Of a stretch of 64,000 bases of DNA, positions 1 through 59,380 are shown one piece after another. Source of the stretch: Planctomycetales bacterium 10988 (GTDB lineage Bacteria; Planctomycetota; Planctomycetia; Pirellulales; Pb10988); assembly GCA_009664345.1 (NCBI GenBank), contig CP043547.1, positions 3,128,709-3,192,708 on the forward strand, read 5' to 3'. A program made the position numbers and the translations under genes. Numbering within the stretch: the stretch's first letter is position 1; every line of letters starts with the position of its first letter. The notes below the pieces were generated by a model, which was given only the letters and a program-made list of their open reading frames with translations, was not told where the DNA came from and searched no databases.

Positions 1-149
1 TTGATAGCTCAGCTTCGGAGACAACCCCGCAAGAAGAACTTCCTTTGGAAAAAATCCAAAAGAAAAAATCCTGGTGGGACGAAGTGGATGAGTTCTATGC
101 TCAATCCGAAGAGATCGACAAACTCTTCAGTGGCCTTGGGATTGAATAG
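1..149 (+). CDS. C-terminal end of a secreted surface protein (partial)
   Basis: Only the last 48 codons are in the window, read from base 3 to the TAG at 147-149. The fragment has a Glu/Pro/Ser-rich linker and then a tail that begins KKKSW and ends EEIDKLFSGLGIE. The ELWxxDGT/FG-GAP protein at 55943-59380 ends in almost the same tail (KKKSWYED... EEIDKVFQGLGIKT), while the linkers before the two tails are unrelated. By inference this is the end of another large secreted planctomycete protein, possibly also an FG-GAP or ELWxxDGT protein. The rest of the gene lies outside the window, so its domains cannot be named. A terminator-like hairpin follows at 185-218. Confidence 0.75.
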   Translation, partial: DSSASETTPQEELPLEKIQKKKSWWDEVDEFYAQSEEIDKLFSGLGIE

Positions 150-55942: not shown

Positions 55943-58900
55943 TCAAGTCTTGATGCCTAATCCTTGAAAGACCTTGTCGATTTCTTCGGCGGACTGGAAG
56001 AAAGCTTCGGTATCTTCGTACCAGGATTTCTTCTTCGTTGGGCTTTCGATGGTGATCGCCTCTGGGCTTTCATTTGATTCCGCGCTAACGGAGTTGGAGA
56101 GCGGAGCCGACATCGGGGCAGGGTCTTCAATAGGGACAAGGCCGATGCCTGCGGCAATGAAGAGACCGTCGAGATTGCCGGCAGCTCCTGAATAGAAGTT
56201 GGCCAAGTCCGCTAAATTCGTGCCGTCGAAGACTCTGGTGTGCGGCCCCCCGGAAGCACCCGGTGTAGTGATGATATCCGCAAAGTTATCTAGGTTGATG
56301 TCCGCGGCTGCGACCTTGACCCCACCGAGAAAACCCGGATCGTAAGCATAAAAGTTTTGCAGAAGTGCGGCATCTTCCGAGCTAAAGACCTTCACATGTG
56401 GGCCACCCCCGGCACCGGGAGACGTGATGATATCATCTTTGCCGTCGCCATCGACATCACCAGCTGCGACAAACACCCCGCCGGTGAAGTTGGGATCATA
56501 GGCATAAAAATTCGTTGCCGCACCTGGAAGCGGAACGCCGGTAGAAAACGAGCCGTTAAACACTTTGATATGCGGCCCGCCGCCGACTCCCGGAGAAGTG
56601 ATAATTTCCGCTAGCAGGTCGCCGTTGATATCGCCCGCCGCGACGCGTACGCCTCCAGTGAAGCTGGCATTGTAAGCAAAGAACTCGGTGATGACGGCAC
56701 CCGTCTGGCCATTGAAGACTTTCACATGCGGACCGCCGCCGGCATCCGTCCCCGTGATGATATCGTCGAAGCCATCTCCATTTACATCGCCGACCGCGAC
56801 ATTCACTCCGCCATTAAACAACGGATGGTAAGCATAAAAGTTATTCACTCCGCCGGTGATCAGTTGTCCTGAAAGACTATCAAACACTTGAAGATGCGGC
56901 CCGCCACCCGGTCCAGCCGCGGTGACAATATCGAGAACCCCATCTCCGTTGATATCCCCCGTCGCGACGCGAACCCCGCCGGTGAACCCATCGCCATACG
57001 GCAAGAAGTGATAAAGTTCCGAACCTACCTCATCAAACACTCGAACCGTCGCCGCCTCACCCGCTTCACTCCCAGAGATGATACTTGGAGCATCCTCAAA
57101 CAATTTCCAGACTGCTAATTCTAAGCCATTGGCAGAATTTAGATACTCCGTGAAGTAGTTCCCTCCAATTTTCACGGCATTCAAGACGATTGTTTCAGGA
57201 CCAGTATAGATAAAAGTCCCCGCACTTGATCCGTCCGAAGTCCATAGGTGTTGAGGAGTTCCATCCTTCTCGATATCCGCTTGAAAATAAAGCTTTCCAC
57301 GAAAATTTGACAGTGATCGAGGATTGGAGCTTTGAGAACCTGGATAAATATCTTTGACAAGCTGAGTTCCCAAGGAGGTACCATCGCTCATCCAAAGTTC
57401 ATAACCATGGCTTCCGTCATTCGCACTAAAGAACAGCGTTCCGTTGACATTCCTTAAGTTTTTGGGCTTGGAGGATTGGGTTCCAGGGCGAATATCCTTC
57501 ACTAAGTACGTTCCTAATGAAGTGCCATCGCTCCTCCACAGCTCTTCACCCTCAGCTCCATTTGCATTGAAAAATAAAGTCCCACTAACATTTTCAAGAT
57601 ATGCAGGAGCTGAGCCTTGAGGACCAGGTACTATATCTTTAACAACTTTGGTTCCTTCAGCGGTTCCATCACTCTTCCATAATTCAAATCCAATGGATTC
57701 GTAGCCCGCTGTCCCCAACGCAAAGAATAGAGTCCCATTGACATTTTGTAAAAAACGAGGATTAAAAGCGCCACCGCCAAGCCTCTTGACTAGGACCGTT
57801 CCCTCGTAGGTTCCGTCAGAACGCCATAGAGCCCTGTCATATTGCTCTGCTTCCGCTGAAAAGAAAAGGGTTCCATTTAAATTCTCCAAATACTTGATGG
57901 AAGAATCTAAATAACCAGGTCGGAGGTCCTTCACGAGTTGGGTGCCTTCAACGGTTCCATCACTTCTCCAAAGCTCTCGGGCAAGGTCACCTTCGGTAGC
58001 ACTAAAGAACAGCGTTCCATTGACGTTCGTTAAGTATCTTGGGATCGAGTTAAGTGTTCGGGCTCGAATATCTTTGACTAGCTCCGTACCTTCGGAGGTC
58101 CCATCTGTCGACCAGAGTTCAATACCATGACAGCCGTCATTTGCCGAAAAAAAGAGGGTCCCTTGGACACTTAGAAAATTGCTGGGACTCGAAAACTCTC
58201 GACCAGGCCTTATATCACGTACAATCGTGGCTCCTTCGGAGGTCCCATCACTTCTCCATAATTCCTCTCCATAAGCATCAATATAAGTTTGAAAAAATAG
58301 ATTCCCATTGAGATTAGTAATCAAGGATGGAAATGAACCCGTGATCCCTTCAACTATATCTTCGACTAATTGTGTACCTTCCGAGGTTCCGTCACTTTTC
58401 CACAGTTCGACACCGTGAATACCATCGTTCGCAGCAAAATAGAGTGTTCCGTTCACGTTTGTTAAGGAGGTGGGATTTGAGCTTTCGCTTCCTGAGTAAA
58501 TATCCTTAACAATCTGAGTCCCTTCCATGGTTCCGTCTGTCATCCACAGCTCACCAACCCAACCCTCTGGATCGGTTGTGTGGATCTTATTTCCTCCGGA
58601 GAAAAACAAGGTGCCATTCACATTTGTAAGTGAGAAAGGTCTGAATCCGTCATGCGTTGCAAATGACTCGGTTATTTGTTCGGTACCTGCCGAGGTTCCA
58701 TCTGTCCTCCAAAGCTCTCTACCTGTTGGATTGTCCTGAGCGGAAAAAAACAAAGTCCCATTATGGTTCAATAAGTCTCTTGGTCTTGAGTCACTAAAGC
58801 CTTCTAGGATGTCCTTCACCAATTCAGCACCAGTCAGGGTTTTGTCAACCTTCCAGAGTTCTTCTCCAAAGCCTATCGTATCAGCTCGGAAATAAAGAGT

Positions 58901-59380
58901 TTCATTGACCTCCGTAAATTCTTTGCCAATCAACTCAGTTCCATCTTTTGCTAAAAGCTGCGCCCTTTCCGTGCCGGAAGAGGTTCCATCGCTCTTCCAT
59001 AGGGACCTCCCATTCGTTCCATCATCCGCAGAAAAGTAAAGTGTCCCATCGATATTGATTAAACTACTGGGGCCTGACGATCGTGAGCCATTAGGGTTGG
59101 TATTGATATCTTTGACAAGTTGGGTTCCTAGAGCCGTCCCATCTGATTTCCAAAGTTCGTACCCAATGGAGCCATCGTTGGCGGAGAAGTAAAGGATTCC
59201 ATCAACATCAACGAGTTCTCGGGGGGAAGAGGACCGGCTATACTGATTGATGTCGATGATCATTGGTTCGACAGACAAGAGGTTCCGCTTTTCCAAGGTT
59301 TCGAGTTGGAGAGGGGTTTCTTTTTGTTCTTGGAGTCGGGTGCGTTCGGATTGCCGGGGGAAGAGGTCGAGCCAAGCCAT
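55943..59380 (-). CDS. Secreted ELWxxDGT/FG-GAP repeat surface protein
   Basis: A 1145-residue protein. The N-terminus carries LETLEKRNLLSVEPM, the planctomycete LLS-type motif that marks exported repeat proteins. About 14 ELWxxDGT units follow (for example ELWKSDGTALGT, ELWRSDGTSEGA), to about residue 700. The next part has five to six FG-GAP-like units with calcium-binding signatures (DINGDGVLD, DVNGDGFDD, DVDGDGKDD). The last 30 residues, from KKKSW to GLGIKT, match the tail of the partial gene at 1-149 and follow a Glu/Ser linker. Function is unknown; the build suggests a calcium-stabilised adhesive or surface protein. The ATG at 59380 has only a weak GGCGGA upstream. Confidence 0.9.
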   Translation of the reverse strand: MAWLDLFPRQSERTRLQEQKETPLQLETLEKRNLLSVEPMIIDINQYSRSSSPRELVDVDGILYFSANDGSIGYELWKSDGTALGTQLVKDINTNPNGSRSSGPSSLINIDGTLYFSADDGTNGRSLWKSDGTSSGTERAQLLAKDGTELIGKEFTEVNETLYFRADTIGFGEELWKVDKTLTGAELVKDILEGFSDSRPRDLLNHNGTLFFSAQDNPTGRELWRTDGTSAGTEQITESFATHDGFRPFSLTNVNGTLFFSGGNKIHTTDPEGWVGELWMTDGTMEGTQIVKDIYSGSESSNPTSLTNVNGTLYFAANDGIHGVELWKSDGTSEGTQLVEDIVEGITGSFPSLITNLNGNLFFQTYIDAYGEELWRSDGTSEGATIVRDIRPGREFSSPSNFLSVQGTLFFSANDGCHGIELWSTDGTSEGTELVKDIRARTLNSIPRYLTNVNGTLFFSATEGDLARELWRSDGTVEGTQLVKDLRPGYLDSSIKYLENLNGTLFFSAEAEQYDRALWRSDGTYEGTVLVKRLGGGAFNPRFLQNVNGTLFFALGTAGYESIGFELWKSDGTAEGTKVVKDIVPGPQGSAPAYLENVSGTLFFNANGAEGEELWRSDGTSLGTYLVKDIRPGTQSSKPKNLRNVNGTLFFSANDGSHGYELWMSDGTSLGTQLVKDIYPGSQSSNPRSLSNFRGKLYFQADIEKDGTPQHLWTSDGSSAGTFIYTGPETIVLNAVKIGGNYFTEYLNSANGLELAVWKLFEDAPSIISGSEAGEAATVRVFDEVGSELYHFLPYGDGFTGGVRVATGDINGDGVLDIVTAAGPGGGPHLQVFDSLSGQLITGGVNNFYAYHPLFNGGVNVAVGDVNGDGFDDIITGTDAGGGPHVKVFNGQTGAVITEFFAYNASFTGGVRVAAGDINGDLLAEIITSPGVGGGPHIKVFNGSFSTGVPLPGAATNFYAYDPNFTGGVFVAAGDVDGDGKDDIITSPGAGGGPHVKVFSSEDAALLQNFYAYDPGFLGGVKVAAADINLDNFADIITTPGASGGPHTRVFDGTNLADLANFYSGAAGNLDGLFIAAGIGLVPIEDPAPMSAPLSNSVSAESNESPEAITIESPTKKKSWYEDTEAFFQSAEEIDKVFQGLGIKT

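Follow-up and report, generated by a model that had tools for sequence, protein, structure and literature searches.

The question raised by this locus is whether a short C-terminal sequence shared by two large planctomycete proteins acts as a sorting signal or simply marks the common ancestry of their genes. To our knowledge, only an N-terminal motif has so far been proposed for the export or retention of very large planctomycete surface proteins. A C-terminal companion signal makes the question testable by providing a short peptide for receptor fishing and residues to change, and we found none described for the N-terminal LEPR motif in the open-access literature searched.

The sequences were noticed in a 64,000-nucleotide stretch of DNA (the window; positions 3128709-3192708 of contig CP043547.1, assembly GCA_009664345.1) from Planctomycetales bacterium 10988, the genome of which is one 6.65 Mb contig. 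The window opens with the 3' end (1-149, + strand) of a 2149-codon open frame comprising a LEPR motif, ELWxxDGT repeats, FG-GAP repeats, a linker, and a tail; the remainder of the frame lies outside the window, at approximately 3122408-3128857 of the genome. The first tail copy, KKKSWWDEVDEFYAQSEEIDKLFSGLGIE, occupies 60-146 (+ strand), is followed by a TAG stop at 147-149, and has a predicted helix over the tail. The second terminates a 1145-aa protein of the same LEPR, ELWxxDGT, and FG-GAP type (55943-59380, - strand), in which the following elements were delimited from the N-terminus on the - strand: the LEPR-type motif LETLEKRNLL (59276-59305), which is PF07595-like with a match under the cut-off (E 0.011); an ELWxxDGT repeat region with the approximate limits 57134-59203 (TIGR04534, E 1.7e-224, 14 stretches); an FG-GAP-like repeat module common to all tail proteins, at approximately 56147-57133; a variable, acidic, Ser/Thr/Pro-rich linker (56036-56146); and the second tail copy, KKKSWYEDTEAFFQSAEEIDKVFQGLGIKT, at 55946-56035 (with stop, 56035-55943).

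The initial annotation had described the two tails as nearly the same. Both were recovered at these positions, and the second was retrieved with an E of 8e-7 when the first was used as the query in a whole-genome search. Their likeness is far above chance, although the wording was slightly strong for an identity of 16 of 29 positions. The same search returned 56 tail copies at E 2e-5 or better, and a profile of 47 tails (A1) recovered these 56 copies plus one fragment. The tail, about 28 residues long, is thus carried in one planctomycete by no fewer than 55 large proteins that are probably exposed at the surface, and in all 55 intact copies it forms the final 24-40 residues before the stop of frames ranging from 271 to 2407 codons. 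The 56th copy, at 6259812, contains an internal stop, and the copy at 3069543 terminates early within the tail.

The 55 proteins are long and repetitive, with many acidic D-x-D-x-D-G-like repeats, and without exception they show the order FG-GAP-like module, linker, tail. Upstream of the module, most carry ELWxxDGT repeats and a few carry Big_12 Ig-like domains, while in 4758116 and 1659739 the FG-GAP module alone was recognizable. The linkers span 31-80 residues with a median of 37, and their composition over the 55 proteins is 17% acidic, 2% basic, and 37% Pro/Ser/Thr. Tandem copies occur in clusters among the tail genes, indicating duplication. At 863145-863346, a full tail is followed after about 75 bases by a partial one, and at 6259812-6260418 a tail copy together with its FG-GAP end is interrupted by a stop; both are duplication relics within the family.

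Pooled pairwise pN/pS counts over the 55 paralogues, with the FG-GAP module represented by its final 80 residues, indicated that the tail and the linker evolve very differently. The tail had a mean identity of 68% and a pN/pS of 0.25, close to the 66% and 0.30 of the FG-GAP residues, while the corresponding values for the linker were 28% and 0.68. Synonymous sites were saturated in all three segments alike (pS 0.75-0.79), so that recent duplication alone is insufficient to explain the conservation of the tail. The tail is kept by purifying selection and is constrained like a folded domain despite the near-neutral linker in between. The linkers themselves had been called unrelated, which does not hold: they are poorly alignable, yet a degenerate frame, SAPFSS...PED..LE.L, is common to the 55 paralogues, and they are consequently homologous and fast-evolving.

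The tail is not part of the FG-GAP domain. All C-terminal FG-GAP modules of the genome carry it, and the modules without it are found in four giant LEPR proteins (7563, 3540, 5941, and 7658 codons), plus one weak case at 1695716. In these giants, the module is close to the N-terminus, and other sequence follows it. The clearest tail-less case, at 437766, is closely related to the module (E 1e-81); it reads ...GGSYIAGGSNGVNDPPTF and has neither linker nor tail. FG-GAP proteins from elsewhere in the order have the module itself or DUF4214-like sequence as their C-terminus, with one ending in a PEP-CTERM-like sequence, and among the planctomycete homologues found in a scan with the module whose ends were read, none had the tail. 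Common ancestry, which had been named as the alternative to a sorting signal, is therefore true of the C-terminal half of these proteins, in which the FG-GAP module always directly precedes the tail. The domains further upstream differ, so that restriction of the tail to homologues of one protein family, which had been put forward as grounds for rejecting a sorting role, was found in half of its sense only.

Two observations on the FG-GAP proteins may be added. LEPR giants with the module near the N-terminus, 5941-7658 codons long, lie at 414000-440000, 627000-651000, and 702000-722000, and some of their C-terminal regions are RHS-like or variable-end-like in appearance. The PEP-CTERM-like case (L143, in genome G146 of the same order) is an FG-GAP protein with the end IPEPSALLLAASAVAIVAPLRISPRAKRRR, and judging by its sequence, it looks like a known sorting tag placed where the tail would be on the same kind of module.

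The full tail was found in a single genome. Within the class, its own genome was the only one of 347 with a match at E 0.001, no full tail being detected in the other 346, and within the order it was the only one of 396, where the other 395 gave only chance-level matches with E > 0.03. Among 84,980 species represented by one genome per GTDB species, a set that possibly does not include the source genome, there were 48 pattern matches, none of which was confirmed. The wide searches capped the number of candidates scored in each genome, and a weak form of the tail could consequently be missed by them. The source genome alone represents its family among the genomes searched. None of the 47 tail members matched an NCBIfam model at E 1 or better, and against Pfam the same members gave just four scattered single-member matches at chance level. 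No shared partner gene recurred in the neighborhoods of the tail genes.

A weaker form of the tail core was nevertheless detectable near the C-termini of LEPR proteins in related genomes. We scored the last 80 residues with a broad pattern, [AVILG][DE].[LVIMA][FLY]..[LWMFI], to which the tail core I-D-K-L-F-S-G-L conforms, and with a strict pattern, [VIAL]D.[LVA][FL]..[LW], the summary form being [VIA]Dx[AVL][FL]xx[LW]. In a first set of 36 LEPR (PF07595) proteins from nine other genomes of the order, the broad pattern occurred in 10 proteins versus 1.1 expected from shuffles, and in 15 of 570 internal stretches; it had first been written after part of this set was inspected, and it was fixed before the fresh set of 56 LEPR proteins from 38 genomes. 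In the fresh set, 14 of 56 proteins carried it versus 2.5 from shuffles (none of 1000 shuffles as high), with 11 of 267 internal stretches matching, and the strict pattern was found in 10 of 56 versus 0.56 from shuffles and in 2 of 267 internal stretches. The controls without a LEPR motif, mostly neighboring ORFs rather than a curated secretome, were reduced from 157 to 109 by removing C-terminal fragments of LEPR proteins. Among these 109, the broad pattern matched five (p 2e-4 against the 14 of 56) and the strict pattern none (Fisher p 1e-5 against the 10 of 56). Examples of the motif include AVDKALANL*, DAIDAALADLL*, AVDEVFAEW, and AIDKALCSLLF.

Unguided motif discovery, run on the two sets separately, returned the same motif from both, [AV][VIL]Dx[AV][FL]xxL, and the motif of each half predicted the other half (p 4e-7 and 2e-5 versus controls). 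The EM motif likelihood was above that of shuffled C-termini, but not above that of internal stretches, probably because internal repeats such as dockerins also give strong motifs. Consequently, the motif claim rests on the fixed-pattern and cross-set tests.

PWMs trained on the other genomes only placed their best site in the whole protein within the tail in 51-53 of the 55 tail proteins, the median protein having 1185 residues. PWMs from the first half alone found the tail in 46-54 of 55, and those from the second, validation half alone in 15-41. Null PWMs from shuffled C-termini scored 0-3, with one of ten reaching 17, and those from internal stretches scored 0-2. Because of the lower values of the second half and the null outlier of 17, the identity of tail and motif is of moderate strength, and the link appears good but imperfect. 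We infer that the broader motif and the core of the tail represent one element. The strict motif lies 0-83 residues from the C-terminus in the other genomes, and its position is nearly fixed in the source genome.

Most tail proteins also carry the N-terminal motif of PF07595 (Planc_extracel), or LEPR-XLL, of the type RRLxxExLExRxLLA, from which the tail differs in its C-terminal location. For R. baltica, a role of this motif in export was proposed, and the motif has been studied in T. immobilis (PMC8567305). By pattern, LExLExRxLL was found near the N-terminus of 50 of the 55 tail frames, after a short basic hydrophilic leader, and it was missing from the other five because the open frame starts downstream of it. 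The PF07595 cut-off was passed at 16 loci of the genome, with the 1145-aa protein of the window falling under it. A Sec-like hydrophobic stretch was seen in none of the 50 leaders; none reached 1.8, the maximum 12-residue Kyte-Doolittle mean being 1.01, and a membrane-like segment after the LEPR motif (19 aa, KD >= 1.6) was present in one of the 55 proteins. The initial annotation called the two proteins secreted, a description best read as presumed export. Roughly 20 more LEPR-type loci in the genome have no tail and end in quite different C-termini, and the tail is thus dispensable for whatever the LEPR motif does. The five tail ORFs without a LEPR part in frame are located at 407511+, 486568+, 5186102+, 5945934-, and 5568053-, and some of them have a separate, short LEPR frame (78 or 225 codons) a few kb upstream (402973, 5574405, and 5180125). 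They look like frameshifted or decaying, and possibly switchable, members of the family.

Structurally, the tail has the features of an amphipathic helix. Its hydrophobic moment peaks at 100-110 degrees and amounts to 0.41 at 100 degrees versus 0.18 for shuffled tails. AF2 predicted a helix for a 48-aa peptide of the window with a pLDDT of about 90 over the tail, single-sequence helix predictions being cheap evidence; the 377-aa C-terminal part, modeled from a single sequence, had a mean pLDDT of 35. The conserved hydrophobic positions are W5, F12, I19, L22, and F23, and D20 is near-invariant. These five residues and D20 may form one docking face, corresponding to the conserved core (I/V)-D-x-(L/V)-F-x-x-L, with the preceding KKKSW segment as a putative lineage-specific extension. 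The tail would then be a short, amphipathic helix that serves recognition at the very end of the protein, with the disordered acidic linker as its tether. While the N-terminal LEPR motif would serve export, the tail may address LEPR-type proteins to one cell-envelope receptor, or hold them there, and a receptor of the same type may serve the broader motif elsewhere. Because some LEPR proteins have no tail, the tail would act as an extra address, with sorting or surface retention as its most likely purpose. We consider a recognition helix that sorts LEPR proteins or retains them at the surface to be the best explanation and give it about an even chance; as parts of it, we infer LEPR-driven export, the existence of the receptor, and retention rather than export as the role of the tail. 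More tentatively, and at somewhat less than an even chance, there may be an undescribed two-signal pathway in which the N-terminal LEPR motif directs export and a C-terminal LD-like helix directs sorting or retention, with an extended and amplified version in the source genome.

The initial proposal of a sorting-type tail is supported by an element that is discrete, C-terminal in 55 of 55 proteins, under purifying selection behind a near-neutral linker, and preceded by differing upstream domains, but the invariable FG-GAP module directly before it weakens the last point. That module and the tandem clusters are also what would be expected if the tail had no separate function and were only the conserved end of one recently duplicated paralogous family. 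This reading is largely refuted, and we regard it as very improbable, given that the tail has stayed 68% identical beside a 28% identical linker at saturated synonymous sites, that it is absent after internal FG-GAP modules, and that its core is found again close to the C-termini of other LEPR proteins. The tail might instead be an uncleaved C-terminal secretion signal for a type I (ABC-transporter) or other one-step exporter, which would suit long, repetitive, acidic-repeat proteins without a Sec-like N-terminus, the strictly C-terminal amphipathic helix, and the occurrence of the core at the C-termini of other LEPR proteins. Type I signals are likewise uncleaved amphipathic C-terminal helices on large proteins without a Sec signal, but they are usually far less conserved in sequence than this tail. 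Moreover, none of the three full-length fused ABC exporters of the genome scored above the cut-off of TIGR03375 (LssB-type), the sole type I family searched; all three match it from position 180 on only, with no obvious adaptor or outer-membrane partner genes adjoining them. The RTX nonapeptide typical of such substrates is essentially absent, with one match in the 55 proteins, and LEPR proteins without the tail exist. We consider export by this route possible but unlikely.

A further alternative is a docking helix for extracellular assembly into a scaffold, matrix, or complex, with a cohesin/dockerin-like logic, or for self-association. LD motifs (LDxLLxxL) are docking helices of paxillin-type proteins, which are eukaryotic and cytoplasmic. 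They are short helices in disordered regions with an Asp/hydrophobic spacing identical to that of the tail core, and many copies on adhesin-like proteins would suit display on one scaffold. The resemblance would be convergent at most, and the only profile match in the PDB, the short peptide entry 3zdl chain B, was insignificant (E 0.52). No scaffold was identified, and the finding of the core in other genomes, on LEPR proteins that are unrelated, suits a general address better. We judge an assembly role to be rather unlikely. Sorting or surface retention through a recognition helix stays our preferred explanation.

In kind, the tail would belong with the C-terminal sorting tags, and it would be new among them in having no membrane anchor. 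As in sorting tags generally, it is C-terminal throughout (55 of 55), behind ELWxxDGT repeats, Big_12 domains, or neither, with FG-GAP always directly before it. It resembles PEP-CTERM/exosortase, GlyGly-CTERM, and MYXO-CTERM as a short C-terminal homology element found in tens of copies per genome on varied domains. PEP-CTERM copies are much more alike within species than between species (PMC1569441), and the tail likewise shows greater within-species than between-species similarity. In contrast to these tags, it lacks a PEP motif, a membrane helix, and an invariant Cys, and its amphipathic helix is soluble and preceded, not followed, by the basic cluster. A Pro-Glu-Pro motif was found in none of the 55 proteins within the last 40 residues, and an LPxTG-like motif in none within the last 60; a C-terminal membrane helix with a following basic cluster is absent, the tail being hydrophilic and amphipathic. 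A tag found in 55 copies, together with the weaker core near C-termini in related genomes, suggests an undescribed protein address label, and a sorting tag in the form of a soluble helix without a membrane anchor would widen the known kinds of bacterial sorting tags.

Other C-terminal ends were observed among the tail-less LEPR proteins of the genome. In three giants, at 502840+, 6180045+, and 4177929+, a hydrophobic segment near the C-terminus is followed by a basic cluster and then by a short terminal helix in which the spacing is W-x3-V-x2-F-like, as in LLGVGAATALSLGRLRPNWESEVEDFMAGTYK; with three cases only, these ends are perhaps a membrane-anchored relative of the tail. At 3343441+ and 2974392+, the latter with a start resembling the ELWxxDGT family, LEPR proteins carry a DUF4214-like C-terminus in place of FG-GAP and tail, as if the two were interchangeable C-terminal modules.
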